A stretch of DNA of 64,000 nucleotides from Flagellimonas marinaquae (GTDB taxonomy: Bacteria > Bacteroidota > Bacteroidia > Flavobacteriales > Flavobacteriaceae). Below the pieces are notes generated by a model. The model did no database searches and was not told the DNA's origin. It saw only the letters and a list, made by a program, of their open reading frames with translations. Position numbers and translations under genes: made by a program. The stretch is taken from positions 1,899,501 to 1,963,500 of the forward strand of contig NZ_CP092415.1 in the NCBI RefSeq assembly GCF_023716465.1, written 5' to 3'. The first letter of the stretch is position 1. Every line of letters starts with the position of its first letter. Positions 46,151-61,846 of the stretch are shown here, piece by piece.

Positions 46151-46168
46151 GTATAAATGAAAGTATTT

Positions 46169-46314: not shown

Positions 46315-46320
46315 CAATTG

Positions 46321-46362: not shown

Positions 46363-46431
46363 TTGCCTGCTTTAATTTGTCACTACATCATATGTTATGC
46401 AGTCAATAGCTATTTTTCATACTTTTGGATT

Positions 46432-46770
46432 ATGAAAGTCTTGGCGGTCATCTTGTCCTTATTGATTGTGGTCCTGTCATCATTTCCATGTTGCCAGGAC
46501 GATGATTTGTGCCCCGACTCCACATCTTTGGCCCACACGAAAGAGCATTGTGCGCACGATGATGTTCCACACGATGATGATTCTCATAAAAATCAATCAC
46601 CTTGTTCCCCATTTTATAATTGTGGTCGATGTTCAGCATTTACTATAAGTTTAAGTTCAATTGATTTTGTGGCATACGAGCCGGAACCTGAGATTTTGCC
46701 AGTGCCGTATACTGAATCGTTTTCTAAAGAATTTTACTTTCTAGACTTTAAACCTCCCCGGATTTTTTGA
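46432..46770 (+). CDS. Small exported His/Cys-rich protein (DUF6660-like), leads the TonB receptor gene
   Basis: 112 residues from ATG 46432 (first Met before a hydrophobic stretch of about 18 residues). After the membrane or signal segment come C-C (about 20-21), a Cys at about 26, a His cluster (H-C-A-H-D-D-V-P-H-D-D-D-S-H, about 38-51) and C-S-P-F-Y-N-C-G-R-C (about 57-66). The C-terminus reads F-K-P-P-R-I-F, an [K/R]-P-P-x3 tail also found in two other small proteins of this window (52233 and 61541). Likely a periplasmic metal-binding accessory to the receptor gene 82 nt downstream; that role is inference. Confidence 0.75.
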   Translation: MKVLAVILSLLIVVLSSFPCCQDDDLCPDSTSLAHTKEHCAHDDVPHDDDSHKNQSPCSPFYNCGRCSAFTISLSSIDFVAYEPEPEILPVPYTESFSKEFYFLDFKPPRIF

Positions 46771-46852
46771 AATATCACTAATTGTTAGTTCACAACTTTC
46801 TTGGTAATTCCTGTTTGACCAAGAACACAATCATTTCAAAAAATCAAATTAA

Positions 46853-49030
46853 ATGAAATTTAAAATATTAATGGTACTGTCCCTGTTCAGGATGGTATCC
46901 GCGTTTGCACAAAGCACATTGAATGTGTCAGTTAAAGATTCCCATAGCAATGAACCCCTGATCGGTGTCACGGCCATTCTGGAATCCCTGGAAATAGGAG
47001 CAATTTCCGATGAGAATGGGAACATTCAAATAGAAAATATTCCTAATGGCACCTTTATATTACAGTTAAGCTATATAGGATATGCACCTATTAAAAAATC
47101 ATTGACATTCCCATTGGATCCAGAATCACAGGGACAAATATTTGCCATGGTGCCACAAACGGAAGAAATGGAAGAGGTTACCCTGGTATCTACTAGGAGC
47201 ACCCGAACCATTGAGGATATCCCGACGAGGGTGGAAGTAATTGCAGGGGAGGAGCTTTCCGAAAAAGGGAATATGAAACCGGGGGATATCCGTATGCTTT
47301 TAAATGAAAGTACCGGAATACGTACACAACAGACCTCGGCAACAAGTTATAATTCCAGTATACGCATCCAGGGCTTGGATGGTAAGTACACCCAGTTACT
47401 GAGGGATGGATTCCCATTGTACTCTGGATTTGCCAGTGGCCTAAGCCTAATGCAAATTGCCCCTTTGGATCTTAAACAAGTTGAGGTTATCAAGGGGTCA
47501 AGCTCCACTTTGTACGGTGGGGGCGCTATTGCTGGCTTGGTCAACCTTATTTCCAAAACCCCGGAAGACGCTCCTGAACTTAGTTTTATGGCCAATGCTA
47601 CTTCGGCACTCGGTTTGGATCTGAGCGGTTTTTATTCCCAAAAGTTTGATAAGGTCGGCACCACCGTGTTCGCTTCCTATAATTTAGGAACACCCTATGA
47701 TCCAGCAGATATTGGATTAACAGCCATTCCAGAGTTTGATAGGGTCACCCTAAACCCAAAATTATATTGGTATTTGGATGAGAAGACCGAATTGATGTTG
47801 GGTATGAATGCCATTTGGGAAGATCGTCTTGGAGGTAATATGGATTATGTCAAGGGTGACGAAGTGGTCGATCCTTATTTTGAATCGAACGAAACCGAAA
47901 GGCTCTCCACCCAACTGGGGTTCAAACATTCTTTTAATGAACAAAACCGTTTAGAGCTCAAAAACAGTTTTAGTTTTTATGATAGAACCATCCAGGTGCC
48001 GGATTTTACTTTTTCTGGTTATCAACGCTCATCTTTTAGTGAACTTAATTATGCCAACAATTCAGATAGTGGATCGGAATGGGTGTTTGGGGCAAATCTT
48101 TGGACGGAATATTTTAATGATACCCGTGGCGATGAGTCCCAAGCTTTGGATCAATCCTTCCAGATACTTGGATTGTTTGCCCAAAATGTATGGCCCATTG
48201 ATGAAACTTTGTCCTTGGAAACCGGTTTTCGGGCGGATTTCCATTCTGATTATGGCGCAATGGCCCTGCCCAGATTATCCGTACTCTTTGAACCCAGCCA
48301 ATCCCTCACCTTTAGATTGGGGGGCGGAATGGGCTACAAAACGCCCACTGTGTTTACCGAAGATGCCGAACGGGTACAGTTTAGGAATGTATTGCCCATC
48401 GATGTGGACCAGACCGATCTTGAAAGGTCCATCGGGGGTAATTTTGATGTAAACTATAAATGGACACCTTTTCCCGGTGTGGTTATGACCCTGAACACTT
48501 TGCTTTTTTATACTAAAATTGATGACCCCATGGTATTGGAATTAACTGATAGTGGATACTATACTTTTCTACAACCAGATGGCTATGTGGATACCCGTGG
48601 GGCAGAGGTGAACTTGAAAGTGAAGTATGGGGATTTTAAATTGTTCACCGGATATACCCATGCCAATGTAGAACAACATCAAAATGGCACGGTAACAGAT
48701 TTTCCATTGGTGGCCAAACATCGTCTGAACAATGTATTGATGTATGAAAAAGAAGAGAAATTTTGGGTAGGATTGGAAGCCTATTATTATAGCCCCCAAA
48801 AGTTGAGCACAGGAGAAACGGGGCAATCCTATTGGATAATGGGACTCATGAGTGAAAAGAAGTTTGGTGATAAATTTTCAATCTTTCTGAATTTTGAGAA
48901 CTTTTTGGATACTCGCCAAACACGATTTGACCAAATATATACGGGAAGCCTCAGTGACCCACAGTTTACTGATATTTATGCGCCAGTAGATGGGTTTGTA
49001 GTAAATGGTGGAGTGAAAATCAAGCTTTAG
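46853..49030 (+). CDS. TonB-dependent receptor, metal uptake type
   Basis: 725 residues. Signal peptide (to about 19, A-F-A-Q-S), carboxypeptidase-D-like domain (about 22-110, P-L-I-G-V-T-A-I-L-E, G-A-I-S-D-E-N-G-N), plug domain (about 120-240, R-I-Q-G-L-D-G-K-Y-T-Q-L-L-R-D-G and L-Y-G-G-G-A-I-A-G-L-V-N) and a 22-strand barrel ending V-N-G-G-V-K-I-K-L. Imports a metal chelate or substrate using TonB energy across the outer membrane. Follows the His/Cys-rich small gene; convergent with the MbnP/MbnH unit. Copper is the likely cargo by context, not proven. Confidence 0.92.
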   Translation: MKFKILMVLSLFRMVSAFAQSTLNVSVKDSHSNEPLIGVTAILESLEIGAISDENGNIQIENIPNGTFILQLSYIGYAPIKKSLTFPLDPESQGQIFAMVPQTEEMEEVTLVSTRSTRTIEDIPTRVEVIAGEELSEKGNMKPGDIRMLLNESTGIRTQQTSATSYNSSIRIQGLDGKYTQLLRDGFPLYSGFASGLSLMQIAPLDLKQVEVIKGSSSTLYGGGAIAGLVNLISKTPEDAPELSFMANATSALGLDLSGFYSQKFDKVGTTVFASYNLGTPYDPADIGLTAIPEFDRVTLNPKLYWYLDEKTELMLGMNAIWEDRLGGNMDYVKGDEVVDPYFESNETERLSTQLGFKHSFNEQNRLELKNSFSFYDRTIQVPDFTFSGYQRSSFSELNYANNSDSGSEWVFGANLWTEYFNDTRGDESQALDQSFQILGLFAQNVWPIDETLSLETGFRADFHSDYGAMALPRLSVLFEPSQSLTFRLGGGMGYKTPTVFTEDAERVQFRNVLPIDVDQTDLERSIGGNFDVNYKWTPFPGVVMTLNTLLFYTKIDDPMVLELTDSGYYTFLQPDGYVDTRGAEVNLKVKYGDFKLFTGYTHANVEQHQNGTVTDFPLVAKHRLNNVLMYEKEEKFWVGLEAYYYSPQKLSTGETGQSYWIMGLMSEKKFGDKFSIFLNFENFLDTRQTRFDQIYTGSLSDPQFTDIYAPVDGFVVNGGVKIKL

Positions 49031-49049
49031 CCAAAACCCGATTGAATGG

Positions 49050-49186
49050 AATGAAGCTGACTAAAAAGTCGATTTACGCCAAACTGAACTTGATTGAGTG
49101 TCTCATCATAATTTGCGTATCAGCATAATGGGACATCGAATTGAATTCAGAATGATGTATTTCCGAACATTTTAGTCAGCTTCATT
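49050..49186. repeat. Palindromic intergenic element between convergent genes
   Basis: A perfect 17-nt inverted repeat (AATGAAGCTGACTAAAA at 49050-49066 and its complement at 49170-49186) encloses a second imperfect palindrome whose arms read ACTGAACTTGATTGAGTG... and ...CGAATTGAATTCAG. Inside sequence resembles flavobacterial REP-like repeats (AAACTGAACTTG). It could form a large hairpin and end both convergent transcripts. Confidence 0.7.
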
Positions 49187-49193
49187 TTTTATG

Positions 49194-50174
49194 TCAAATA
49201 TTGATATTAAGATACACGGAAAACCTGTTTTTGACTTCGACTTTTCCATTGTTCAGGTCCTGTGCAATGGGTAACATGGTAGAAACGCCCAGGGCGTATT
49301 GTTTAAAATTCACTTCGGCGCCCAATTTGCCAAAAAAAGCACTTCCCCCCGTATCGGCTACCTCTAAACCGTATTCTTCATTTTTGTCGAAATACTCACC
49401 GCCAACACCAAGTTGGGGGGTTAACGCAAAATTAGTCCCAAAATAATAGGTTTTGTAGGTGTTGAGAGCGTAATTAAACTGATTTCCAAAACGATATTCT
49501 TTATCGTTTTTCGACTTAATGGTGTAATTGGCCATAACGGACAAGCCCCAATTTCGATGGGTGATACCATAATTGGCGGCCAACAGATAATCCCAGCTGC
49601 CGGTTCCCAATTGAAAACTGGGGTTGACACTGCCTTCAAGGTTTGCTTCATCAAACTTGCCTGTGGGCATTTTAACACCACCTCCCAATTGCAAAGTATG
49701 TCGGGGTTTGATTGAGATAATGCTATCCGGGGTTTGTTTCAGTATTTGATAGAACCCAAGAATGGTAGCATCGCCCATTCCGTTGATGCTTTGTTCCGTA
49801 TTATCTGCAAATTCCCTATAGTGGAACTGATAGGGGAGTACGGCATTGATGATAAAACGCTCTCCAAGTGGAATCTGTGTCCATAATTGTAGGGTATTGA
49901 AGTGCTCATCAATCCACGGCGAATTGGCAAAAATACCATCACGGGACTGATAACGCTGGGCTATATACCTGAGCCCTATGAAATTGTTGTTCAATCCGGT
50001 GCCAAAACCCATGCTTCCGCCATTTCCGCTACAGCCGCAAGTATCGCAAAAATCATCGAACATCATTAGGGTTGCCGATGTGGTTTTGGTACATGGATTT
50101 ACGGGTGTTTTATTGGATGTCCCGGTATGGATTCCTAAAATCAATAAAAAAAGTAGTGTTATGTAAATTTTCAT
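49194..50174 (-). CDS. Outer-membrane barrel protein of the MbnP/MbnH unit
   Basis: 326 residues from ATG 50174, which starts 4 nt after the MbnH-like gene's stop (the longer ORF start at 50204 would overlap it). Signal peptide 1-19. The N-terminal mature part has a Cys cluster F-C-D-T-C-G-C-S-G-N-G-G (about 41-52, metal-like). The rest is beta-barrel-like with many aromatic ends (G-L-R-Y-I-A-Q-R-Y, A-V-L-P-Y-Q-F-H-Y) and a final F-S-V-Y-L-N-I-N-I. Likely an outer-membrane transporter-like partner in copper handling; known only by neighbourhood. Confidence 0.8.
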   Translation of the reverse strand: MKIYITLLFLLILGIHTGTSNKTPVNPCTKTTSATLMMFDDFCDTCGCSGNGGSMGFGTGLNNNFIGLRYIAQRYQSRDGIFANSPWIDEHFNTLQLWTQIPLGERFIINAVLPYQFHYREFADNTEQSINGMGDATILGFYQILKQTPDSIISIKPRHTLQLGGGVKMPTGKFDEANLEGSVNPSFQLGTGSWDYLLAANYGITHRNWGLSVMANYTIKSKNDKEYRFGNQFNYALNTYKTYYFGTNFALTPQLGVGGEYFDKNEEYGLEVADTGGSAFFGKLGAEVNFKQYALGVSTMLPIAQDLNNGKVEVKNRFSVYLNINI

Positions 50175-50178
50175 AAGG

Positions 50179-51225
50179 TTAGTATTCGGCGAATCTTTCG
50201 TCATTAATAAATTCTTGATCGGTAAGGGTATTTAAAAAGGCGATCAGGGCTAGTTTTTCTGTTTCGACCAGAGAAATTCCCAGACCTTCATCTGTTTTTA
50301 ACAAGGGGTCCAGCGTGGGTGAGTCCTGAACCCCATTTTGATAGAAGTTCAGTACGGACTCCAAGCTTCCAAATCTACCATCGTGCATGTATGGGGCGGT
50401 CAGGGCCACATTCCTTAAACTGGGCACCTTGAACTTGTAATTGTCATCCGAACTGCCACTTACCAAAGCCCTTCCCAAATCATTGATATTTGGATTAGGG
50501 GGCAAGCCATTGTTCCTAAAACTTCCATCGGAAAACAGGTCGGAGGTGTGGCAGCTAGCGCATTTTTCTTTGAAAATTGACATGCCTTGAAGTTCTTGGT
50601 CGGTCAAAGTAACCCCATCTTCGTTCCGTACATATTTGTCGTATTTGGAGTTATAAGAAACCATCATCACCATAAACTGTGCAATGGCTTTCAAAAAGTT
50701 CTCGTGGCTTACCCCGCCTTCTTCAAAAGCGGCATTGAATGCATTTTGGTAATCGCCATCTTTCTGTAATTTTTGAAGAATTCCTGTCATGGTTTCTCCC
50801 ATTTCCACCTCGTTTGTAATCGGGATTATGGGAAAAAGATCCAAGTGATTGGTGGCTCCGTCCCAAGCGAATTCCGAAAAGAAAGCCATGTTGGCAATCG
50901 AGGGAGTGTTTCGGGTTCCTTCCAAATCGTTTATGCCATGGCTAAATTGATGACCATGGTGCGTGAACGAAAATTTTTGTTCATGACAAAAACCACAGGA
51001 TATAAAACCGTTTGCTGATAATTTGCCATCATAAAACAGTTTTTTTCCCAATTCAAAACCGAATTTGGTAGGAGGATTGGCTTCTACATTATAGATCATT
51101 GGCGGAAAGTTTGAAGGTATGGTAACGGACAAGAGTTCGTTGTCACCAATACTCCGGTACTCCTCATCGTTTTGGCTGCAGGCAGATAACATCATTAGCA
51201 GGATTGCCCATATTAGATGTTTCAT
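50179..51225 (-). CDS. MbnH-like di-haem cytochrome c peroxidase family lipoprotein
   Basis: 348 residues. Lipobox M-L-S-A-C near 13-17. Two c-type haem sites: C-G-F-C-H (about 78-82) and C-A-S-C-H (about 223-227). Family: MauG/CcpA-type, closest in context to MbnH, which oxidises a Trp of MbnP to kynurenine to make its copper site. The neighbouring MbnP-like gene, 52 nt upstream on the same strand, gives the expected substrate. It is outer-membrane or periplasmic. Peroxidase function in the classical sense is not assumed. Confidence 0.88.
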   Translation of the reverse strand: MKHLIWAILLMMLSACSQNDEEYRSIGDNELLSVTIPSNFPPMIYNVEANPPTKFGFELGKKLFYDGKLSANGFISCGFCHEQKFSFTHHGHQFSHGINDLEGTRNTPSIANMAFFSEFAWDGATNHLDLFPIIPITNEVEMGETMTGILQKLQKDGDYQNAFNAAFEEGGVSHENFLKAIAQFMVMMVSYNSKYDKYVRNEDGVTLTDQELQGMSIFKEKCASCHTSDLFSDGSFRNNGLPPNPNINDLGRALVSGSSDDNYKFKVPSLRNVALTAPYMHDGRFGSLESVLNFYQNGVQDSPTLDPLLKTDEGLGISLVETEKLALIAFLNTLTDQEFINDERFAEY

Positions 51226-51245
51226 AGGTGTAAAATTGAATTTGA

Positions 51246-51270
51246 GGGCTGTTCATTTTATGAACAGCCC
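51246..51270 (-). other. Intercistronic hairpin between MbnP and MbnH genes
   Basis: Perfect 10-nt stem GGGCTGTTCA/TGAACAGCCC with a 5-nt loop, no T run on the minus strand. It is in the 52-nt gap, so it may set mRNA stability or a lower MbnH dose rather than end transcription. Confidence 0.6.
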
Positions 51271-51277
51271 ATAAAAT

Positions 51278-52075
51278 CTAGTGTGAGCTTCCGTCTCCGT
51301 TGTGTACGTGATCCACAGTGAACATATTTGATGTGTTTGTGGCGATTAGGGGTGATTTTTCCTCGCTGACCATAATTACCGCTTGTTCGGTAAGCGATAT
51401 TTTATGTTGTCCATCCAGTATATTGCCGGCATTGGCCACAATATGGATTATCGGGGTCATATCATCACTGACCAAGGCATCTGTTCCAAGGCTTAGCGTG
51501 GTTTCTTTGTAATTGTCCAAGCTGGAACCGTGACTTCCCATATGAATTTTAAAATTGGTGTCATCGGTAACCGTGGCCGAGGTAAACGTTCCCTCAAAAT
51601 TCAGGAACTTGTAGCCAGCTTGCCAGGACCACATCATGTTATTGTTTTCAGCTTGGGTAAGGAGGTCTCCCTGTCCTTCGGCTCCCAAGAGATACTTTTC
51701 TTGGTCCACACCAATTCCAAACGTTATTGAAGTGTACTTGCCGGTAGGAACATCGTAAAGAACTACTTCTGTTTTTCCGGTTTCTTCGCTTGTTATAAAA
51801 AAGCCCGTATCCTTAGGATAGGTGAATATGTTACCATCTTCATCGGTCAGCCTAAAATTTCCGACAATGTAGTTCAGGCGTTCTATGGTCAAGGTCTCAT
51901 TCTGGGAATTGGTGTAGGAAGACCCTAGAATAAGGTCGTCCCCGGATACGCTGTTGTCAAATTCAATTTTTACCATTCCGGTACCTGTTAGTTGCGTAGA
52001 ATCGTCATCGCTGCTGCATGATGCCAATAAAATGGATAAGAATAAAGCGGTAGATAATTTATAAATTGATTTCAT
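51278..52075 (-). CDS. MbnP-family copper-binding lipoprotein
   Basis: 265 residues. Lipobox L-L-A-S-C-S-S-D-D-D (about 16-25) with the acidic lipoprotein export signal of Bacteroidetes. Family marks: N-Y-I-V-G-N-F-R-L (about 69-77), M-M-W-S-W-Q-A-G-Y-K-F-L (about 147-158) and a C-terminal D-H-V-H-N-G-D-G-S-S-H. The W-S-W-x-x-G-Y-K segment holds Trp residues of the type that MbnH turns into kynurenine. Periplasmic or surface copper binding, cotranscribed with the MbnH-like gene. Which Trp is modified here is unknown. Confidence 0.88.
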   Translation of the reverse strand: MKSIYKLSTALFLSILLASCSSDDDSTQLTGTGMVKIEFDNSVSGDDLILGSSYTNSQNETLTIERLNYIVGNFRLTDEDGNIFTYPKDTGFFITSEETGKTEVVLYDVPTGKYTSITFGIGVDQEKYLLGAEGQGDLLTQAENNNMMWSWQAGYKFLNFEGTFTSATVTDDTNFKIHMGSHGSSLDNYKETTLSLGTDALVSDDMTPIIHIVANAGNILDGQHKISLTEQAVIMVSEEKSPLIATNTSNMFTVDHVHNGDGSSH

Positions 52076-52232
52076 CTGTAATACAAATAGTTATGAGTTG
52101 GGAAGCCTCTGCTTAAAAGCCCCCCGGATTAAAAATGTTATATACATGTGCCAAAGGCGCAGTACTTAAAAGTATAGGCACAGTTGCTTTTTTCCCTTTA
52201 GGGAAATAGCACAGCTATAAAAAAGGTCGGTG

Positions 52233-52628
52233 TTAACAGATGATGGGCGGGCGAAAAACTGAAGCTGTAAATTGGCGCGGTTTGCTAGAGGTAAATTCAG
52301 GTAGTTGGTCGTTTTCCAAAGTTTGCGGAGTAAAATCACAAAAAAGAATATCCACAAAGCCGATGGGATACTCTTTCATGTTAATAGAGGGTAGATTTTG
52401 CTTTTTTTCGTCTTGTTCTTCTTGCAGCATTTTGGACAGATAGCACTTACCGTTACAGTTGAGCATTGGTTTGTCCTTGTTCACGCACAAATACTCGGCA
52501 ATGTAGTCTTGGTTGACCACATATTCAAAAACAGGAAGTACGGGCCTTAACATGGCCATTACATACAAAAGTGTGAACAATATGGGAAGACTCCGCTGTT
52601 TCAAGAAAAATTTTTTGAACCTGTACAA
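52233..52628 (-). CDS. Small membrane-anchored CNGKC-motif protein leading the MbnP unit
   Basis: 131 residues. Basic start (M-Y-R-F-K-K-F-F-L-K-Q-R), a hydrophobic segment at about 14-34, then L-C-V-N-K...L-N-C-N-G-K-C-Y-L (about 47-64) and a conserved middle with I-L-F-C-D-F (about 94-99). The C-terminus is F-R-P-P-I-I-C, the [K/R]-P-P-x3 tail shared with proteins at 46432 and 61541. It lies 157 nt upstream of the MbnP gene. Metal (copper) binding by the three Cys is plausible. Family has no assigned function that I know of. Confidence 0.75.
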   Translation of the reverse strand: MYRFKKFFLKQRSLPILFTLLYVMAMLRPVLPVFEYVVNQDYIAEYLCVNKDKPMLNCNGKCYLSKMLQEEQDEKKQNLPSINMKEYPIGFVDILFCDFTPQTLENDQLPEFTSSKPRQFTASVFRPPIIC

Positions 52629-52655
52629 ATATAATCCACTTAATTGATAGATGTA

Positions 52656-52685
52656 AAAAAAGCTGCCTGTTTTAAGCAGCTTTTA
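52656..52685 (-). terminator. Terminator overlapping the PAS gene's stop codon
   Basis: Minus strand AAAGCTGC / GCAGCTTT stem with TTAAAACAG loop region and seven T. The left arm is the last two Ala codons of the PAS gene, so the stem starts inside the coding region. Confidence 0.8.
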
Positions 52686-53163
52686 GTTCTTTTTCCAAAG
52701 CTATGAAACAGGATAGTTTTTTTTGGGGGCTATAATGTGGCAATATTTTGATGTGACATAGATAAGGTTCGCCATTTTTGCGATAGTTAATCACCGCGCC
52801 ATCAAAACTGTGATGCGCGTTTAACTGTTCCCTAATTTCTTTTTTGATGGTTTTTGATGTTTCTTTTCCTTGTAAAAAGCTCGGTTTTTTTTGTAGCGCG
52901 TAATTTTTTCGATACCCTGTCATTTCTATAAAACCATCATTCACCCAAAGAATGGAATGGTCCGGGTCGGTAACGACCAGGGCGTCGTAGTTTTCCTTTT
53001 TTATAAGACTCTGATTCTCTTGCGATATTTCCTCACCAAGCAGGTAGGTGATTTTCTTTAGGTCTGCTTCTTTTTTTAGGTTGCCCAGTAACCTGTGATA
53101 GCTTTCCAAATAAAAATCAAAGCTTAGTAATGGGGATGCCTGGAGTTTGTTGTCTTTCGTCAT
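52672..53163 (-). CDS. PAS-domain protein, LOV-like but without the flavin Cys
   Basis: 163 residues. N-terminal helical part (1-55), then one PAS domain: A-L-V-V-T-D-P-D-H-S-I-L-W-V-N-D-G-F (about 64-81), M-T-G-Y (about 85-88), K-P-S-F-L-Q-G-K-E-T-S (about 96-106), F-D-G-A-V-I-N-Y-R-K-N-G-E-P-Y (about 122-136). It resembles LOV (x-F-L-Q-G) but the photoactive Cys position is occupied by Pro/Ser, so no blue-light adduct is expected. No output domain. Downstream of the thioesterase gene by 19 nt. Confidence 0.88.
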   Translation of the reverse strand: MTKDNKLQASPLLSFDFYLESYHRLLGNLKKEADLKKITYLLGEEISQENQSLIKKENYDALVVTDPDHSILWVNDGFIEMTGYRKNYALQKKPSFLQGKETSKTIKKEIREQLNAHHSFDGAVINYRKNGEPYLCHIKILPHYSPQKKLSCFIALEKELKAA

Positions 53164-53182
53164 TGTTTTGTTCTACGTTAAA

Positions 53183-53566
53183 TTAAACCACTGAAATTGG
53201 TGTTTTGTCCTGGTTCAAGGCAACAAAGGTGAACTGGCCGCAGATGGCCTTTTCCCTTTGGCTGGAATACATTTCTTCCAAATAAATGTCCACTTGCACT
53301 TTTAAACTTTTGTTGCCCACCTTTATTACTTCGCCTATCAGTTCAATAATGGTACCTGCAGGAATTGGGTGGTCAAAATCTATACGATCTGTACTTACGG
53401 TCACCATTCGTTTTCTGCTGAACCGTGTTGCAGTAATAAAGGCAACCTCGTCCATTAGGCTAAGTGCGGTTCCGCCAAACAAGGTGTCGTAGTGGTTTAC
53501 GGTATTGGGGAATACCGCTTTAAAAATGTTTGTTTTTGATCGCTTTATGCGTTCGCTGATTTCCAT
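53183..53566 (-). CDS. Hotdog-fold acyl-CoA thioesterase
   Basis: 127 residues from ATG 53566 (M-E-I-S-E-R-I-K). The frame extends to a TTG at 53593, judged less likely. YciA/BACH-like hotdog signatures: F-P-N-T-V-N-H-Y-D-T-L-F-G-G (about 20-33), L-M-D-E-V-A-F-I-T-A (about 38-47), I-D-F-D-H-P-I-P-A-G (about 62-71), with the C-terminal F-V-A-L-N. Cleaves acyl-CoA. It is the first gene after a cobalamin riboswitch on the same strand, about 170 nt from the aptamer's end. Confidence 0.9.
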   Translation of the reverse strand: MEISERIKRSKTNIFKAVFPNTVNHYDTLFGGTALSLMDEVAFITATRFSRKRMVTVSTDRIDFDHPIPAGTIIELIGEVIKVGNKSLKVQVDIYLEEMYSSQREKAICGQFTFVALNQDKTPISVV

Positions 53567-53735
53567 GGCAAAAGCTTTTATAAAATTGAACAATTAGATA
53601 AAAGCTCCTTAGCTCAACTTCGCAATGCCTTAAACAAGTGGAACGTGTGTGGAGTTTTGCCGGATAAGCCGGTGAAAGTTCAAACGTTCGACTTGCCCTT
53701 TACGCGAAGGCATCGTCAAAATCCTACAAAGTAGG

Positions 53736-53922: not shown

Positions 53923-53958
53923 ATGATAAAGAAATTAAGTAAAGAACTTATTTGGTGG

Positions 53959-54357: not shown

Positions 54358-55632
54358 ATGCAGATAACTCATATAACTAAGAGGGATTTTAGTACGCAAG
54401 AATTTGATTTACACAAGATTACGAATGCAATCTTGAAAGCCATGACAGCTGTGGAGCATGGCCAGATCACCGATGCGCAGACCATTGCCAGCAACGTAAA
54501 TAAAGAGTTGTTGGAACGAAAGAGCCAAGACCAACATTATGTGCCCACTGTTGAAGAAGTGCAAGATGTTGTAGAGAACCAACTTATGGACAGTGAGTTC
54601 CACGATGTGGCAAAAGCGTACATTATTTATAGGAACAAAAGGGCCCAAATGCGGGAGTCCGATATTTTTGAAAAACGAATAAACCTTAAACCTTACGAAT
54701 ACCCACAATTATACGAATACGTTCCCGCGATCAGACACTCGTATTGGATACATACTGAGTTTAACTTTACCAGCGATATCCAAGATTTTAAATCCGGATT
54801 GACCGAAGTGGAACGAAGTGCCATTAAAAATACCATGTTGGCCATTTCCCAGATCGAGGTGGCCGTAAAAACATTTTGGGGCGACATATACCATCGTATG
54901 CCAAAACCAGAAATAGGTTCGGTGGGAGCCACATTTGCGGAGAGCGAGGTGCGCCACCACGATGCTTACTCGCACCTACTGGAAATTTTGGGACTGAACC
55001 AAGAGTTTGAAAACCTGAAGAAGAAACCGGTGATCATGAAAAGAGTGCAGTATTTGGAGACGGCACTTAAAAATGCAAAAAGCGAAAACAATAAGGAGTA
55101 TGCCGAGTCCATTTTGCTATTTTCCCTTTTTATCGAACATGTTTCCCTTTTCTCCCAGTTCCTGATCATTATGGCGTTCAACAAACATAAAAATGTACTG
55201 AAGGGAATTTCGAACGTTGTGGAGGCGACTTCCAAAGAAGAGCAGATCCATGGTGATTTTGGTATCGATGTAATCAATATCATCAAAAAAGAACACCCGG
55301 AATGGTTCGATGATGCATACAAGGAAATGATCCAAGATATCTGTGAGAAGGCATTTGAATCGGAAAGTAAAATAGTGGATTGGATATTTGAAGCTGGTGA
55401 ATTGGATTTCTTGCCCAAAAACTTGGTAAACGAGTTTATCAAGAACAGATTCAACAACTCATTGGAGAGTATCGGGATTTCTAAAATATTTGATGTCGAT
55501 CAAAAATTATTGGAGCAGACCGAATGGTTCGATGACGAGATCATTGGAACAAAACACGGAGACTTTTTTGTAAAAAGATCCATTAACTATAGCAAAAGAA
55601 CACAAAGTATAACAAGCGACGACCTTTTTTAA
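54358..55632 (+). CDS. nrdB: Class I ribonucleotide reductase small subunit NrdB with N-terminal ATP-cone
   Basis: 424 residues from ATG 54358 (a longer start at 54310 adds 16 poor residues). Residues about 1-95 form an ATP-cone (I-T-K-R-D-F-S, V-P-T-V-E-E-V-Q-D-V-V-E, A-K-A-Y-I-I-Y-R), an allosteric domain normally on NrdA. The ferritin-like core has ligands D143, E197, H200, E260, E295, H298, and a Tyr at 204 in E-x-x-H-x-x-x-Y spacing as in the classical radical Tyr. The ATP-cone on NrdB is known from the flavobacterium Leeuwenhoekiella, where it switches the subunit between active and inactive oligomers. Gene order nrdB-nrdA, 3 nt apart. Confidence 0.95.
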   Translation: MQITHITKRDFSTQEFDLHKITNAILKAMTAVEHGQITDAQTIASNVNKELLERKSQDQHYVPTVEEVQDVVENQLMDSEFHDVAKAYIIYRNKRAQMRESDIFEKRINLKPYEYPQLYEYVPAIRHSYWIHTEFNFTSDIQDFKSGLTEVERSAIKNTMLAISQIEVAVKTFWGDIYHRMPKPEIGSVGATFAESEVRHHDAYSHLLEILGLNQEFENLKKKPVIMKRVQYLETALKNAKSENNKEYAESILLFSLFIEHVSLFSQFLIIMAFNKHKNVLKGISNVVEATSKEEQIHGDFGIDVINIIKKEHPEWFDDAYKEMIQDICEKAFESESKIVDWIFEAGELDFLPKNLVNEFIKNRFNNSLESIGISKIFDVDQKLLEQTEWFDDEIIGTKHGDFFVKRSINYSKRTQSITSDDLF

Positions 55633-55635
55633 ATT

Positions 55636-57426
55636 ATGGAGAAGAGAACACAACTAACCCCGACCACAGACCAAAAACAAGACAATAAAACACAAGAACT
55701 TGTAAACGCAAGAAAGGATACCTTGTCCAAACTTAAAACCGAGGAAGACAAGGGGTTCGAATGGTTGAACGAGTATAGCCGAAAGTTTTTGGCATCTGGG
55801 TACCTAACCGAGGGCGTAACCCCTGAAGGGCGTATCCGCGAGATTGCCGATAGGGCCGAGGAGATATTGCAAATTCCTGGGTATTCGGATAAATTTTATG
55901 GATATATGTCCGAAGGATTTTTCTCCTTGGCATCTCCAGTTTGGTCCAATTTTGGTAAAAAACGTGGTTTGCCCATTAGTTGCTTTGGCTCACATATCGA
56001 CGATGATATGGGGAATATCCTTTATACACAGTCCGAGGTAGGAATGATGTCCAAACTAGGTGGTGGGACATCGGGATATTTTGGAAATATTAGGCACAGG
56101 GGTGCTCCTGTAAAAAATAATGGTCAAGCCTCGGGAGCAGTTCATATTATGCAGTTGTTCGAATCCATGGTGGATGTGGTTAGCCAAGGTTCGGTTCGTC
56201 GCGGTCGTTTTTCTCCATATTTACCAATCGATCACAAAGACATTATGGAATTTTTGGAAATTGGTACCGAAGGTAATCCAATCCAGCAATTAACACATGG
56301 TGTAACAGTGACCAACCAGTGGATGCAGGAAATGGTCGAAGGCGATGTTGAAAAAAGGACCGTTTGGGCCAAAGTGTTGCAACGTAGGGGTGAAATGGGA
56401 TATCCGTATGTGTTCTTTACCGATAATGCCAATGATGGTGCAGCGGATGTATACAAGGACAAGAACCACCGTATTCATGCCAGTAACCTGTGTACAGAGA
56501 TTATGTTGCCATCTAATGATAATTGGTCTTTTGTTTGTGTGCTCTCCAGCGTAAACTTGATGCATTACGATAAATGGAAAAAAACCGATGCGGTAGAGAC
56601 CATGGTCCATTTCTTGGATGCAGTAATTACAGAGTTCATCGAAAAATTGGAGGCTTACAGAGATTCTTCGGACAGAGAGGACAGACAGACTTTCCTATTT
56701 ATGGAAAGAGCTTACAACTTTGCAAAGCAAAACCGTTCCTTGGGTCTTGGGGTCTTGGGCTGGCATTCTTTATTGCAGTCCAAAAGAGTGGCCTTTAACA
56801 GTCAAGAAGCGTATAACTTGAACAGCGAAATTTTTAGGGAAATCAAAGAACGTTCCTACAAAGCTTCAGAACAATTGGCCGAACGATTTGGTGAACCGGA
56901 GGTGTTGAAAGGTTACGGAAGGCGTAACGCAACATTGAATGCGATTGCGCCTACTACCTCATCTGCCTTTATTTTGGGCCAAGTATCCCAAGGTATCGAA
57001 CCAATTTGGTCCAACTGTTATGTAAAGGATATTGCCAAGATCAAGACAACTATCAAGAACCCATTTTTAATGGATTTGCTGGAAGAAAAAGGGCAAAACA
57101 CTCCGGAAGTTTGGAAAAGTATCCGTGATATGGATGGTTCTGTACAACATTTGGACTTTTTGACCGAAGAAGAAAAGGCGGTCTTTAAAACCTATTCAGA
57201 AATAGATCAACTTGATATAATTTATCAAGCTGCCAATAGGCAGAACCATATAGATCAAGGGCAATCGGTGAACATTATTGTGCACCCGGACATGCCTACC
57301 AAGGATATCAACAAAATCCACGTTACCGCTTGGAAATTGGGACTTAAATCCCTGTACTACCAGCATAGCATGAATGCTGCACAAAAATTCAAGCAAAAGA
57401 AGGATTGTGTGAGCTGTGAGGCATAG
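55636..57426 (+). CDS. nrdA: Class I ribonucleotide reductase large subunit NrdA, without ATP-cone
   Basis: 596 residues, about 100-150 shorter than typical NrdA because the N-terminal ATP-cone is missing. Active-site set: Cys116 (P-I-S-C-F-G-S), N284-x-C286-x-E288 (N-L-C-T-E-I), Cys301 (F-V-C-V-L-S-S), Tyr pair in S-L-Y-Y-Q-H-S, and a C-terminal redox pair C-V-S-C at 591-594. Reduces ribonucleoside diphosphates to deoxy forms, paired with the cone-bearing NrdB. Starts 3 nt after the nrdB stop; strong terminator follows. Confidence 0.96.
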   Translation: MEKRTQLTPTTDQKQDNKTQELVNARKDTLSKLKTEEDKGFEWLNEYSRKFLASGYLTEGVTPEGRIREIADRAEEILQIPGYSDKFYGYMSEGFFSLASPVWSNFGKKRGLPISCFGSHIDDDMGNILYTQSEVGMMSKLGGGTSGYFGNIRHRGAPVKNNGQASGAVHIMQLFESMVDVVSQGSVRRGRFSPYLPIDHKDIMEFLEIGTEGNPIQQLTHGVTVTNQWMQEMVEGDVEKRTVWAKVLQRRGEMGYPYVFFTDNANDGAADVYKDKNHRIHASNLCTEIMLPSNDNWSFVCVLSSVNLMHYDKWKKTDAVETMVHFLDAVITEFIEKLEAYRDSSDREDRQTFLFMERAYNFAKQNRSLGLGVLGWHSLLQSKRVAFNSQEAYNLNSEIFREIKERSYKASEQLAERFGEPEVLKGYGRRNATLNAIAPTTSSAFILGQVSQGIEPIWSNCYVKDIAKIKTTIKNPFLMDLLEEKGQNTPEVWKSIRDMDGSVQHLDFLTEEEKAVFKTYSEIDQLDIIYQAANRQNHIDQGQSVNIIVHPDMPTKDINKIHVTAWKLGLKSLYYQHSMNAAQKFKQKKDCVSCEA

Positions 57427-57445
57427 AAAATCCAAATTTGACATT

Positions 57446-57484
57446 AAAAAAGGAGGTCCCGACAACGGGACCTCCTTTTTTTTG
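57446..57484 (+). terminator. Strong terminator after nrdBA
   Basis: AAAAAAGGAGGTCCC / GGGACCTCCTTTTTT stem, loop GACAAC-like, then a T run; perfect 10-15 base pairs, 20 nt past the nrdA stop. Confidence 0.95.
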
Positions 57485-57569
57485 TTCTATTGAAGAAGAC
57501 TTTATTTAAATACGGGACCAATCATATTTTTGCGTCCGTGGTTTTAGTTTTTATTGCTGTGGGCAAATT

Positions 57570-57599
57570 AATAAAACGAAGGACAGTCTCCGTTTTATT
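57570..57599 (-). terminator. Terminator after the 57595 DUF4625 gene
   Basis: Minus strand AATAAAACG / CGTTTTATT arms with a GGAG-CTCC-like inner part; the left arm includes the stop codon TAA. Ends in TTTTATT. Confidence 0.6.
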
Positions 57600-58074
57600 C
57601 CACAATCTTAATGTCCACAGATGTTCTACCTTGCCATCCAGTGGCATCCGTTACGGAGTAGGCACAATGGTAGTCGCCGGTATCTATATCTTCCGGTATG
57701 GTAATGCTAATATTGATCTCATGTGAAGTTCCACCTTCTGCAATAGTAAAGTTTTGCATGTAGATCAATGGGTTTTCTGCACTTTTAACAGCTTCTAGAT
57801 CACATTGAGCACCCTGGTCATCGTGGGTGTGGTGGTCAAAATTGTGATGTATGTCCAAACTATAGGAGGCCAAGGATACATTATCCGTTGCTTGGGCCTT
57901 AAATGTGTAGGTCTGACCCCTTTGCAGTACTTCGCAGGCTTGGGGAAAGCCACCCGAGAAGTTTATGCTGATCGCAGGCTTTTCTTCATCAATAGTAGAG
58001 TCGTCACTACTTGAGCAGCTCGACAAAAATATGATTGAAGTGGCGATAAAGATGTGTTTAAATTTTAGTTTCAT
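57595..58074 (-). CDS. DUF4625 lipoprotein, single domain, His-rich
   Basis: 159 residues. Lipobox L-S-S-C-S-S-S-D-D-S (about 17-26) for surface export. One DUF4625 beta-sandwich unit: R-G-Q-T-Y-T-F-K-A (about 52-60), Y-S-L-D-I-H-H-N-F-D-H-H-T-H-D-D (about 71-86) with six His, and D-T-G-D-Y-H-C-A-Y-S-V-T-D near 131-143. The His/Asp patch suggests metal binding (zinc or copper). Third gene of the TonB unit, last in the transcript. Confidence 0.85.
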   Translation of the reverse strand: MKLKFKHIFIATSIIFLSSCSSSDDSTIDEEKPAISINFSGGFPQACEVLQRGQTYTFKAQATDNVSLASYSLDIHHNFDHHTHDDQGAQCDLEAVKSAENPLIYMQNFTIAEGGTSHEINISITIPEDIDTGDYHCAYSVTDATGWQGRTSVDIKIVE

Positions 58075-58089
58075 AGTTTTTTTTTAAAA

Positions 58090-58115
58090 CCGTGGAGCCC
58101 TAAAGGGCCCCACGG
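58090..58115 (-). other. Strong intercistronic hairpin between the DUF4625 genes
   Basis: Minus strand CCGTGG...GGGCCC/GGGCTC...CCACGG stem of about 11 pairs with a TTTA loop, then TTTTAAAAAAAAA. It may be a partial terminator or mRNA stabiliser, giving more of the upstream genes than of the last one. Confidence 0.65.
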
Positions 58116-58124
58116 ATATTCATA

Positions 58125-58910
58125 TTAAACTGTAGGTACTGTAATATCGATATGGTCTTCGAATTCGTGGATGTTTCCATCCTCGTCCTCGATAGTAAAA
58201 ATAATGTGATATTCCCCTGCTGGAGCAGTAGCAGGTACTTCTATGTGCTCATGGAACTCTGCCTCGGTCAATTCGTGGTAATCCTCGGAAAAGTCGCCTT
58301 CGTAATCCCATTCCACTTCTCCTTCGCCTACTTCAAGATCGTGGGCATGAACATCCACCAATACCTCATGTATACCATTTACCGCTTCGATCATAAATTC
58401 TATATGGAAATCGCTTCCTCGCTCTACGGTTTCATCCATTTCAAAATCGCTTACGGTAATAGGATCAAGAATTTGGATGTGACCTTCGATTTCTGTTGTA
58501 TTTCCAAGGGCATCGGTCACTACCAGTTCAATGTGGTATTCTCCCGCGGGAATGTTGGTCGGAATATCGATGTGTTCATGGAATGTAGGGTTGATCACCA
58601 AGTAATCGGCATCGGTCCAAGTTTGTTCGTAATCCCAATCTACTTCACCTTCTCCGGCCTCTACCTCGTCTGAATGAATGTCGATGGAGATACTTTGTAC
58701 AACTCCTTCGGCAGTAATTTCCGCTTCTAAATGAAGGTCCGATCCTTTATAGGCAACTTGATCGGTAGAATGGGCACTGCCCTCTCCAAATTCAAAATTG
58801 GCGATAACCGGGGCTGCTACTGCGTCGGTTCCATCATCATCGCTACTACAAGATTGAAGGGCTACGCCTAAAAATGCGATAATTGCAAGTGGTTTTAACA
58901 TTGATTTCAT
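58125..58910 (-). CDS. Tandem DUF4625 lipoprotein (two repeats)
   Basis: 261 residues. Lipobox L-Q-S-C-S-S-D-D-D (about 18-26). Two in-tandem DUF4625 units (about 35-145 and 146-261), each with I-H-S-D-E-V-E-A-G-E-G-E-V-D-W-D-Y-E or V-H-A-H-D-L-E-V-G-E-G-E-V-E-W-D-Y-E, and F-H-E-H-I-D/E-I/V-P followed by A-G-E-Y-H-I. The doubled acidic/His motif is unlike the single-domain paralog next door. Likely surface metal binding, cotranscribed with the TonB receptor 39 nt upstream. Confidence 0.87.
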   Translation of the reverse strand: MKSMLKPLAIIAFLGVALQSCSSDDDGTDAVAAPVIANFEFGEGSAHSTDQVAYKGSDLHLEAEITAEGVVQSISIDIHSDEVEAGEGEVDWDYEQTWTDADYLVINPTFHEHIDIPTNIPAGEYHIELVVTDALGNTTEIEGHIQILDPITVSDFEMDETVERGSDFHIEFMIEAVNGIHEVLVDVHAHDLEVGEGEVEWDYEGDFSEDYHELTEAEFHEHIEVPATAPAGEYHIIFTIEDEDGNIHEFEDHIDITVPTV

Positions 58911-58949
58911 TTTTCTTCTGTTTTTGATATTAGACTTAATTTGATTTAT

Positions 58950-61319
58950 TTAAAATGGTATGGTCATCGAAATGGATAAGTTCCTGCCAGGTTCTGGAAC
59001 GTCGATAAGCCGATAAAAACTGGTATGATCGTAGTATTCTGTATTGAATACATTATTTAGTTTTATGCGTAATTGCATAGGTTGTGCCGTTTTGAACATT
59101 GTTATCCCTGCCATGGCGGATATATGGAGTACTTGAAAACCTTCTGTTTTTTCCTCTGGAGGTACAATATCGTTTTGGGCAGCGGTTATCCTATATTCCG
59201 CGGTGATACTCGGTGCTTTTAAAAAGGATACATTCTTAAATTGATAGTTGGCAGAGAGCAAAGTGGAGAGGGGCGGATTAAAGGGTAGCGTGAAATCCTT
59301 TTTGGGTCCACTGGTCTGTCTGGAATACACATATTCCAAAGAAGCATCCAAACGTAGATCATTGCCGACGGTTGCACCTACCCGTGCCTCGCCACCAAAA
59401 CGGACTACCTCGCTTTGGGTATATTCGTACACTTGTAAGGTCTCATAGTAATTGGAGGTAGGGTTGAGATAAATGTAATTTTCAAAATAGTTGAAAAAAG
59501 GGCTGATACCAAAATCAAAATAGTTGTTGGAATGATCGATATCCAAATCTATTTGATAGGATTGTTCTGGGTCTAGATCTATTCTTCCCCTTTCGTAACG
59601 GTACATATGATAGTTTACCCCATCTGAAGCCAACTCATTGGCCAAAGGCATTCTAAAACTCTTTCCAACGTTTACTTTATATGTAGTATTATTATTGAGG
59701 TAACTCAAACCCAAAGATCCGCTTAGGTTGCCAAATTCCAAATCCTCGTCTCGTGCACGTTGCAAAAATACATTGGAGGTGGTGCCATCGGGATTGTTTA
59801 CAACAGATCGGAACCAGTCTGTGTAGGATGTTGTCCGCATAAGGCCAGCATCGTATCGCAAACCTCCCTGTAAGTGTAAATTTTCACTGATTTTATAATG
59901 GTCAAATACAAACACTCCCGCGGTATACCGGTCATAAGCAGGAATCAGAAAGCCCCATCCACCTATATTATTGTTCTGGTATTCCGTATTTATTCCAAAA
60001 ACAATGTCATGTCTATCATTGGGCTTAAAGGTGTCTTTTAAGTTCAGCGAATAGGTGTTTTTTGTAAATACCCTTTCCCTGCTGTTGGGGGGTGTGGGCA
60101 TATAACCATGGGGAACAGGTTCGGAGTGCTCCTCTCTTTGGTTGTTTTGGTAACCAAGGTCCAATTGAATGGTGTGCGCTCCTTTATAAAAAGTGGTGTT
60201 ATTGGTTATTTTAAAGTGGTTTACCTTGTGGTAGGGTAAATCGATATCCCGATCGGAACTATCATAATCGATAGAGGAGTTCCTAACCTCGAGACCATGG
60301 GCATTGGCAAAGAATCCATTTTTGGCGTTTACATTGCTGAAAAAAGTTTCTGATTTAATGTTTTCCGTTACAAAACCAATGCTGGCACTGGCATTGGCTT
60401 CCATGCCCGCTGTATTTCTGAGATGATTTTCGTACAGGTCAAAAACGTAGCCCTCGTAATAAATTTTATCGGTGGGCACTTTGTAATCGCCATAATCCCG
60501 GTAGGTCAATCGCCCACGATAGAACCATTGTTCTTTTCTTCCTTGGATTCCAGTGGAAATACCTAAAAGATCATTATTGGTCTCACCAAGTAGGTTTACT
60601 TCACCATTAAAGGAGTTCGGCATGGGTATTTTTGAGGGCTGGATGTCCACTACACCGGCTATGGCATCGGAGCCATATAATAAAGATGCGGGACCTTTAA
60701 TGATCTGTATGTTCTCTATTCCGTATTGGTCTATTTCGAGCCCATGATCATTTCCCCATTGCTGGGCTTCGTGCTTAATGCCGTTTTGGACCACACTTAC
60801 CCGATTAAATCCGAGCCCCCTGATTACAGGTTTTGATTGCCCTGAGCCAATGGTTATGGTGCTTACACCAGGAATTTTTTTAAGGGTTTGCATTAAGCTG
60901 TTCTCGCGGTTGGTTTCCAAAAATTCCTTGTCCACTCCAACTGAAATTGTTGAGAGTTCTTGAGCCTGTCTTTTGTCACTTTTTCCAAGTAGCTCAATCT
61001 CATCTAAATTGGTCACCTTCTCCGTTAATTTTATTGTGTATTCGCTAAGGTTTCGATCCACTTCTATAACCAATTTGATTGGAGCGTAGGCAATATGGGA
61101 TATTTCAAATGTATGAGCTCCTTTAGGTATATTCTCTATAATAAATTCACCGTTTAGCGAGGAGACGGCATGTTTGGTACTACCAACAATATTGGCGCCT
61201 GAAATAGGGGCCAAAGTACTCGAATCAATAACCGAACCTATAATAGTGTAGGTTTCCTGAGCCCAAATCAAAGTGTTGAAACCAATAAACAAACAAGCAA
61301 GAAGTGTGTATTTTATCAT
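58950..61319 (-). CDS. TonB-dependent receptor, ZnuD-like
   Basis: 789 residues. Signal peptide (to about 20, I-W-A-Q), carboxypeptidase-D-like domain (about 22-95), plug (about 110-240) with R-G-L-G-F-N-R-V-S-V-V-Q-N-G-I-K-H-E-A and Q-Q-W-G-N-D-H-G-L-E-I-D, then a barrel with an outer loop R-E-E-H-S-E-P-V-P-H-G (about 400) and a final I-S-M-T-I-P-F. The H-E-A-Q-Q-W-G-N-D-H-G-L-E pattern resembles ZnuD zinc receptors. Zinc uptake is inference. Between the small His/Cys gene and the DUF4625 genes. Confidence 0.9.
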   Translation of the reverse strand: MIKYTLLACLFIGFNTLIWAQETYTIIGSVIDSSTLAPISGANIVGSTKHAVSSLNGEFIIENIPKGAHTFEISHIAYAPIKLVIEVDRNLSEYTIKLTEKVTNLDEIELLGKSDKRQAQELSTISVGVDKEFLETNRENSLMQTLKKIPGVSTITIGSGQSKPVIRGLGFNRVSVVQNGIKHEAQQWGNDHGLEIDQYGIENIQIIKGPASLLYGSDAIAGVVDIQPSKIPMPNSFNGEVNLLGETNNDLLGISTGIQGRKEQWFYRGRLTYRDYGDYKVPTDKIYYEGYVFDLYENHLRNTAGMEANASASIGFVTENIKSETFFSNVNAKNGFFANAHGLEVRNSSIDYDSSDRDIDLPYHKVNHFKITNNTTFYKGAHTIQLDLGYQNNQREEHSEPVPHGYMPTPPNSRERVFTKNTYSLNLKDTFKPNDRHDIVFGINTEYQNNNIGGWGFLIPAYDRYTAGVFVFDHYKISENLHLQGGLRYDAGLMRTTSYTDWFRSVVNNPDGTTSNVFLQRARDEDLEFGNLSGSLGLSYLNNNTTYKVNVGKSFRMPLANELASDGVNYHMYRYERGRIDLDPEQSYQIDLDIDHSNNYFDFGISPFFNYFENYIYLNPTSNYYETLQVYEYTQSEVVRFGGEARVGATVGNDLRLDASLEYVYSRQTSGPKKDFTLPFNPPLSTLLSANYQFKNVSFLKAPSITAEYRITAAQNDIVPPEEKTEGFQVLHISAMAGITMFKTAQPMQLRIKLNNVFNTEYYDHTSFYRLIDVPEPGRNLSISMTIPF

Positions 61320-61540
61320 TATAAAAACTAGATTTTGTAACTAGCTTCTCTTTTGGGGGAAGCATTTATGGAGGTTCCATCAAGTGTGTTTCTAGTATAG
61401 GGGGTCGACTTAATGCTTAAAACAAGTATTTGTCAAAAACTGATGTATTGCATACACCAAAAGCAAGTTTTGGATTTTAAGCAAAATCAAGTCATAGTAA
61501 ATGGTAAAAATCTAAATACCAAAAACGAGGATGGAGGATG

Positions 61541-61846
61541 TTATGTGGTAGGGGGAGGCCTCGAAAACAGATGGCTTATGGTAAGCGTTCCGGAAACCTC
61601 AAAAAAATAGGAATTGGTAACTTTTGGATAGTAAACCACAGTGTTCTCAATGGTAGGCTCAACAATATCGTTTACTATTCCAGGGGATTGACTATCGTGT
61701 GCTATATTCAAGCATATCTCACAATGGTCTAGATAATCGTCTGTATCGTTATGATGGGTAAGCGCATGTAAGCCTACGAGCTTGGTTGCCAAAAAGAGGA
61801 CAAACAAACCGTAAGCGATACTATTGCTAAGACGATTCTTTTTCAT
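61541..61846 (-). CDS. Small His/Cys membrane-anchored protein leading the ZnuD-like unit
   Basis: 101 residues. N-terminal membrane segment (about 10-26), then H-A-L-T-H-H-N-D (about 27-34) and D-H-C-E-I-C-L-N-I-A-H (about 40-50), a compact HHH/CxxC-type metal site. A polar beta-like part follows, and the C-terminus reads F-S-R-P-P-P-T-T, the same [K/R]-P-P-x3 tail as at 46432 and 52233. First gene of the unit, 221 nt ahead of the receptor. No function is known to me; metal sensing or delivery is inference. Confidence 0.7.
   Translation of the reverse strand: MKKNRLSNSIAYGLFVLFLATKLVGLHALTHHNDTDDYLDHCEICLNIAHDSQSPGIVNDIVEPTIENTVVYYPKVTNSYFFEVSGTLTISHLFSRPPPTT

Follow-up and report, generated by a model that had tools for sequence, protein, structure and literature searches.

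Pro-Pro-tailed small proteins at the head of Flavobacteriaceae metal-type loci: candidate nascent-chain metal sensors with a predicted RNA helix in register with the Pro-Pro codons

Why should small exported proteins of little overall similarity end in the same Pro-Pro (PP) signature when they stand ahead of metal-type genes? A 64,000-nt stretch of the Flagellimonas marinaquae genome (contig NZ_CP092415.1, positions 1,899,501 to 1,963,500; hereafter the window) raises this question three times over, with genes for proteins termed here leaders A, B and C, each followed on its own strand by a gene for a TonB-dependent receptor (TBDT) or for MbnP (Table 1). An earlier reading of the sequence alone had proposed one family of metal-capturing or metal-sensing accessory proteins whose tail docks on a shared partner. 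Checking the open reading frames (ORFs) and translations reproduced the three ORFs, their tails and their Cys/His motifs as given there. For the tail itself, ribosome pausing is a better reading than docking: by analogy with the known leaders CruR and CutF, the three proteins are probably regulatory leader polypeptides, encoded by upstream ORFs (uORFs), that sense metal as nascent chains.

The tail is a real, selected feature. ORFs of at least 90 aa were called in the window and in sixteen 20-kb stretches of the same genome (384 kb; the genome used comprises 3.78 Mb on two contigs). PP lies 1-8 residues from the C-terminus in 5 of these 319 ORFs, and among the 77 proteins shorter than 170 aa it ends only the three window leaders (0/74 others), bearing out the enrichment over small proteins that the sequence-only reading had led one to expect. 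Profile searches of 199 genomes from the leaders' taxonomic family, Flavobacteriaceae, matched family B in 115 genomes, family A in 66 and family C in 32. A part of these matches was fetched, with the search or by place (30 and 60 for B, 30 and 20 for A, 30 and 12 for C), giving, with the loci of the own genome included and duplicates removed, 191 distinct leaders (A, 51; B, 95; C, 45). PP is present within the last 16 residues in 190/191 (A, 51/51; B, 94/95; C, 45/45), and the check for homologs that keep the locus without the tail thus left the tail standing. The lone exception, L084, has probably suffered a frameshift or sequencing error, because a PP tail is readable in another frame of the same DNA (...SNRSYRPPIIQS). 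Family B also matched 102 of 198 genomes sampled across the class. Further family B leaders, 29 from a class-wide search that gave 30 loci and 74 from named genomes (best 80 of 572 relatives), carry PP in 103/103 cases. All 12 family B loci in which the profile match stopped short of the tail (query end 103 or less) keep PP, and the motif is therefore not only an effect of the search model. At the protein level, PP starts within 17 residues of the end in 119 of 120 leader B homologs among the matches listed (162 in total).

The constant part of the tail is PP itself. The sequence-only reading had placed the two Pro residues at exactly -5 and -4, right after a basic residue. The positions hold in all three window leaders, with a third Pro at -3 in leader C, and fail in their relatives, where PP is followed by 1-14 residues, most often by 2 in families A and B and by 3 in family C. 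The basic residue is not general: Q precedes PP in 42/51 family A loci, whereas family B has H, K and R in 31, 24 and 14 of 94 loci, and family C has R in 38/45. A fixed position with an obligatory basic residue is thus ruled out by the relatives' tails. Neither do the leaders form a single protein family, since no homology is detectable between the three profiles (hhalign probabilities of 0.2, 0.4 and 0.9%).

What did stand is the shared layout: the leaders are small and head metal-type loci, their N-terminus is hydrophobic, and they combine a Cys/His patch with a selected signature at the C-terminus. A hydrophobic N-terminal segment, judged by hydropathy only, is present in 189/191 leaders. 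In alignments that took in PP-bearing loci only, and in which PP is therefore 100% by construction, the core Cys columns are 98-100% conserved and two further family A Cys columns reach 84%, while the stretch ahead of PP is variable; alignment A1 (32 chosen sequences, the query plus 31 of the matches listed) is likewise all PP-bearing. The last metal Cys and PP are separated by exactly 41 residues in 45/51 family A loci (range 21-45), as in leader A, and by 64-74 residues in family B (86 measured). CxxC is found in 44/45 family C loci, 51-55 residues ahead of PP (44 measured). Leader A scores 26.6 bits against PF20365 (DUF6660), for which the cut-off is 27, and PF20365 is present in 5/7 of its homologs among the matches listed. 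The start of leader B is uncertain, as homologs P0012 and P0016 begin later than the TTG codon. We call these loci metal-type on account of the Cys/His patches of the leaders and their RND and MbnP neighbors; the leader-linked TBDTs presumably transport metal.

A predicted RNA helix between the end of the leader and the next start codon, seen first for leader A by reading the gaps, connects the tail to the downstream gene. For each locus we scored the best helix, free of interruptions, that the end of the leader can form with sequence surrounding the next start. The helix set was limited to loci that carry a PP tail and are followed, across a gap of 40-320 nt, by an identified next gene (173 of 191); outside it are 18 loci, namely L084, two that lack a next gene and 15 whose gap is longer. 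Strong helices were found in 83/173 leader loci, compared with 5/99 ordinary same-strand pairs of the own genome and 7.9% of 865 swapped partners; the earliest helix controls were exploratory. After removal of similar loci, 62 of the 143 non-redundant loci retained a strong helix, against a mean of 12.4 and a maximum of 21 in 200 within-family swap permutations (mean-score z 18.2 overall; 8.8, 15.2 and 3.3 for families A, B and C, respectively). Helices were counted as registered when the 5' arm lay +1 to +8 nt after PP and the 3' arm ended -20 to 0 from the start, which was the case in 45/143 non-redundant loci versus a swap mean of 4.8 (maximum 11, 200 permutations). Under the same criteria, new family B loci from the named genomes gave 13/59 registered helices versus 1.5 (maximum 5, 300 permutations; z 7.7). 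Arm sequences differ among many loci with complementarity kept, and the family A RND loci share a similar arm. In the window, the helix is clear for leader A, weak for leader B and absent for leader C, for which the helix search returned no strong helix to the TBDT start in the gap. A consensus scan for intrinsic terminators gave 17 sites versus 15.2 expected, and the gaps behind the three leaders contain none of them.

In families A and B as sets, the helix is registered to the PP codons and not to the stop codon. With 2, 3, 4 or 5 residues after PP, the 5' arm has a median start of +5, +4, +4 and +4 from PP and of -1, -5, -8 and -11 from the stop codon (n = 46, 14, 9 and 2; 71/173 loci, relatives included). 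The helix is thus tied to PP, because the distance to PP stays as the residue number changes. In the non-redundant set, the 5' arm scatters by 1 nt (median absolute deviation) when measured from PP, and by 3 nt when measured from the stop. Such a register favors ribosome pausing over docking, which does not predict it. Docking, as the sequence-only reading saw it, would have the mature exported protein bind a shared partner via [K/R]PP and deliver or sense metal, in keeping with the conserved Cys/His patch, the C-terminal motif and the export-like N-terminus. However, the tails of the three families share nothing besides PP, three unrelated families would have had to acquire the same dock, and a helix tied to the PP codons would be left unexplained; in the excerpts of the published work used here and below, the analogues CutF (PMC9973294) and CruR (PMC9426467) were not detected as mature proteins. 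With the PP codons setting the position of the RNA helix in families A and B, a docking tail is highly improbable. Translational coupling without arrest accounts for more of the geometry: the 5' arm mostly begins at the leader stop or slightly ahead of it and runs across it, so that any ribosome finishing the leader would also open the helix, with PP as a mild slow site or kept for other reasons. We nonetheless regard coupling as unlikely, because the arm is registered to PP instead of the stop, PP is the constant part of the tail, and the median leader-to-gene gaps of 97 nt (A), 96 nt (B) and 221 nt (C) are long for simple translational coupling.

A ribosome standing at PP would be the natural link between the peptide motif and the RNA structure. 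The usual toeprint lies ~15 nt from the P-site codon. Given this distance, and if the two Pro codons occupy the P and A sites as in the in vitro arrest of CruR (PMC12992588), the front edge of a paused ribosome would fall near +9, on the helix foot. We propose a plausible mechanism along these lines. First, the ribosome would pause at PP while the leader undergoes export; seated on the foot of the helix, it would hold the downstream start accessible. A ribosome passing PP would terminate a few codons later and leave, and the helix would then close over the next gene. Binding of metal to the nascent Cys/His patch may alter the pause, and importer and exporter loci may respond with different sign, just as CruR and CutF do. 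For leaders B and C of the window, and for family C, this proposal rests mainly on the conserved PP and its context.

The placement of the 3' arms is in line with this proposal. Messenger RNAs (mRNAs) of F. johnsoniae lack Shine-Dalgarno sequences, and structure within -20 to +20 together with adenines at -3, -6 and -12/-13 tunes their initiation (PMC6847099). As the 3' arm ends between -14 and -6 in 58/83 strong helices, the helices cover this initiation-tuning zone; without a Shine-Dalgarno sequence, the switch would hide a region about 8-25 nt before the start codon. When a stall was modelled by masking 15 nt to mimic a ribosome at PP, next-start accessibility rose by 0.063 on average, compared with 0.021 at ordinary junctions (p 6e-5), and from 0.38 to 0.61 for leader A.

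CruR and CutF (DUF2946) are copper-responsive leaders of Proteobacteria, acting through Rho-dependent termination (CruR; PMC9426467) and a stem-loop on the next gene (CutF; PMC9973294). CruR, the B. pertussis protein Bp2923, is the uORF of a TonB receptor operon; its RAPP motif, which ends three residues before the C-terminus, is required for the downstream gene to be expressed (PMC9426467). CruR further resembles the window leaders in its small size, CxxC, a PP that only three residues follow, its position at the head of a TBDT operon and a long intergenic region, and its export signal would correspond to their hydrophobic N-terminus; DUF2946 also heads MbnPH-like genes (PMC9426467). CruR differs in having RAPP in place of xPP, and Rho termination in the gap in place of the hairpin predicted here on the next start. 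The window leaders are not DUF2946 members by our searches: the C-terminal RAPP is absent, PF11162 gave no row for any of them at E up to 10 (HMMER filters drop most weak matches), and 0/60 genomes of their taxonomic family matched DUF2946 at E 0.001.

CutF, from R. capsulatus, has a signal sequence, a metal motif, a C-terminal PP and a stem-loop hiding the next start. The window leaders share the C-terminal PP, and their hydrophobic N-terminus, putative metal site and predicted helix (clear for A, weak for B, absent for C) would be the counterparts of the rest. The excerpted description of CutF counts 5,334 CutF-like proteins, 40% (normalised) or 19% (otherwise) of them from Bacteroidota, with RND and TonB genes among the neighbors; the filters were <150 aa, PP within 15 residues of the end and a same-strand neighbor at <1000 nt (PMC9973294). 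All three window leaders fall within these length, PP-position and distance limits, and a CutF-like class is, in those excerpts, already in print for Bacteroidota. The excerpts give intergenic lengths and describe mixed modes of action; they mention no PP-registered helix (PMC9973294). SecM, which regulates secA, and the RAPP arrest peptides ApdA and ApdP also arrest near the C-terminus, and SecM has an adjoining stem-loop that hides the next start; they differ in being linked to Sec/YidC and in their RAGP/RAPP tails (PMC10987492, PMC10951233), and the Shine-Dalgarno sequence that SecM masks has no counterpart in Bacteroidota mRNAs (PMC6847099). Within the collection of papers covered, our literature searches found no paper naming DUF6660 or HYC_CC_PP and none joining MbnP, MbnH and Flavobacter; on arrest peptides, Bacteroidota and TonB, the relevant hits were Sec-linked or RAPP peptides and the CutF paper. 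No description of a PP-registered helix was found in the excerpts, and those of a 2026 study of CruR-linked copper TonB transporters name Bacteroidota only for BtuB clusters (PMC12914433).

Several observations weigh against the pausing-leader interpretation. The window tails are of the form xPP (FKPP, FRPP and SRPPP) and not R[AG]PP, and the CutF tail alone caused no stall in a LepB fusion (PMC9973294, in excerpt). The tail is absent from two protein matches, P0005 (family A, on a 575-bp contig) and P0101 (family B, 1/120 of the matches listed). A strong single helix is missing from 81/143 non-redundant loci, and because the loci are related, the swap controls overstate independence somewhat. 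Family C is weak (5/33 strong versus 2.0; registered 4 versus 0.64; z 3.3): an RNAalifold consensus of 14 family C gaps predicted no pairs, and a hand-drawn two-helix structure, although 67% of its cells were paired in these gaps versus 30-45% in slid versions, was matched by column shuffles in 86/500 cases. The class-wide sample of family B loci, mostly from other taxonomic families, gave 3/27 registered helices versus 0.43 (maximum 2; z 2.1). The modelled stall brought no gain for leaders B (0.61 to 0.57) and C (0.57 to 0.56), and start accessibility in the absence of a ribosome was no lower than that of ordinary junctions (p 0.33). A final point comes from HYC_CC_PP (NF047658), found in 54/60 genomes (L271-L300, e.g., L279 and L284). 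These are also small Bacteroidota leaders with PP in their name, ahead of genes that look RND-like and metal-chaperone-like by eye, but PP is mostly 15 residues from the end and the C-terminus is mostly FLI, YLI or FII; NF047658 gave no row for the three window leaders at E up to 10. The same PP register was rejected for them, with a mean score of 18.2 versus 16.5 for swapped partners and strong helices in 14/30 versus 28% (30 loci, of which 2/30 lack PP and hence had an over-long search window), and this result limits generalising of the PP register. Some HYC_CC_PP leaders have long helices near the stop codon (20 bp in L279).

The genes behind the leaders bear on the nature of the signal. 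Pfam confirmed the expected TonB receptor or MbnP behind each window leader, and a di-haem cytochrome c peroxidase/MauG gene after MbnP, for which the name MbnH is taken from the sequence-only reading; the same-strand gaps are 82 nt (A to TBDT), 157 nt (B to MbnP) and 221 nt (C to TBDT). The next gene was scanned across the families over at most its first 300 residues at E 0.001. Family A (51 scanned) precedes 38 AcrB-type RND and 13 Plug (TBDT) genes; family B (90/95 scanned) precedes 36 Plug, 27 MbnP, 12 Phenol_MetA_deg, 4 YtkA and 1 cytochrome bd; and family C (41/45 scanned) precedes 29 Plug, 10 ABC_tran and 1 DUF5829. An arrest leader could instead sense a non-metal cue, such as translocation state or the redox state of a Cys pair. 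With this layout SecM, MifM and VemP respond to export status, Bacteroidota have clusters of Sec-linked arrest peptides (PMC10987492, in excerpt), and Cys pairs can form disulfides. The downstream Pfam matches are, against this, mostly TBDT, RND, MbnP and ABC, with no Sec or Dsb family among the matches listed, and we consider a non-metal cue quite improbable compared with a metal signal. The claim that each leader is the first gene of its transcription unit is not universal, as the second DUF6660 gene of the same genome lies 47 nt after a same-strand gene (CusB-like by eye).

Table 1. Positions of the leaders, their motifs, helix arms and downstream genes within the window
Feature	Coordinates	Strand	Evidence
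Leader A, DUF6660-like, 112 aa, tail FKPPRIF	46432..46770	+	ORF and translation
Leader A Cys cluster C-x5-C-x2-C, putative metal site	46603..46632	+	translation
Leader A Pro-Pro codons, proposed pause site	46753..46758	+	PP in 51/51 family A loci
Leader A helix 5' arm GATTTTTTGAAAT, 13-bp perfect, spans leader stop codon	46761..46773	+	swap p 0.0099, smallest possible
Leader A helix 3' arm ATTTCAAAAAATC, ends 8 nt before TBDT start	46833..46845	+	helix search
TonB-dependent receptor after leader A	46853..49030	+	Pfam
Leader B, unnamed family, 131 aa from TTG, tail FRPPIIC	52233..52628	-	ORF and translation
Leader B C-x9-C-NGK-C motif, putative metal site	52443..52487	-	translation; three Cys columns 100% in 94 PP-bearing loci
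Leader B Pro-Pro codons	52245..52250	-	PP in 94/95 family B loci and 103/103 further ones
Leader B helix 5' arm TCATCTGT, 8-bp, weak	52236..52243	-	swap p 0.04
Leader B helix 3' arm ACAGATGA, overlaps MbnP start codon	52072..52079	-	helix search
MbnP after leader B	51278..52075	-	PF20243, E 2.3e-43
Di-haem cytochrome c peroxidase/MauG family, MbnH-like by position	50179..51225	-	PF03150
Phenol_MetA_deg family protein, end of MbnP group	49194..50204	-	PF13557
Leader C, unnamed family, 101 aa, tail FSRPPPTT	61541..61846	-	ORF and translation
Leader C CxxC (CEIC), 52 residues before PPP	61712..61723	-	translation
Leader C Pro-Pro-Pro codons	61550..61558	-	PP in 45/45 family C loci
TonB-dependent receptor after leader C	58950..61319	-	Pfam
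Two DUF4625 genes after leader C receptor	58125-58910 and 57595-58074	-	PF15418

Within the F. marinaquae genome, a small PP-tailed Cys/His ORF lies just upstream of 5 of the 60 Plug-domain matches (59 of which are over the cut-off): window leaders A and C, one paralog each of families B and C, and a His-rich protein of another kind. With window leader B and two paralogs, which precede an RND pump and an ABC transporter, the number of such leaders reaches eight. PP-ending ORFs before receptors at L021 (238 aa), L044 (80 aa) and L050 (113 aa) were judged unrelated and not counted. The His-rich protein (L073:1181-1621, at ~2050180-2050620 of the own genome) represents a fourth leader kind, of 146 aa with the tail TTPPPQYS and no Pfam match, 106 nt ahead of its TonB receptor. 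A family C paralog (L071:1512-1820, tail FCRPPPLTT), with C-x4-H in place of CxxC, precedes an ABC-type ATPase gene; a gene judged Fur-like by eye lies upstream on the opposite strand. At L096, L097, L098 and L100, two family B leaders lie close together within one locus, suggesting serial or dual control. In L077:2162-3181 and similar family B loci, a downstream protein recurs with RPDGHAPISVMGDH near its N-terminus, and the full-length one tested has no Pfam match. The gene at L081:2170-3069, for a protein like cytochrome bd oxidase subunit I, follows its family B leader by 297 nt and accounts for the single cytochrome bd match in the 90 genes scanned; bd oxidases are not known to use copper.

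Other RNA elements occur near the leaders. A tRNA-Leu(CAA) followed by a 14-bp terminator-like hairpin lies upstream of leader A (window positions 46233-46353). Rfam at gathering scores returned only a cobalamin riboswitch and a tRNA in 46000-62500. The riboswitch (53728-53931, strand -, 90.6 bits) has 53183-53593 as the next ORF on its strand, and apparent ribonucleotide reductase genes (by eye) begin at 54310 on the opposite strand.

Taken together, the data lead us, on balance, to lean towards a convergent origin, in which unrelated Bacteroidota families would each have combined a nascent-chain metal sensor with a bare xPP pause and a helix fixed 4-5 nt behind the PP codons, and in which many such metal TonB receptor, RND and MbnP loci would be under translational metal control. 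The proposal offers a mechanism for hundreds of unnamed small proteins that head Bacteroidota metal-type loci (294 leaders seen), and it links a peptide motif to an RNA helix through their shared register. It further suggests a way for SecM-like control to work in Bacteroidota, whose mRNAs have no Shine-Dalgarno sequences, and more than one origin of nascent-chain metal sensing.

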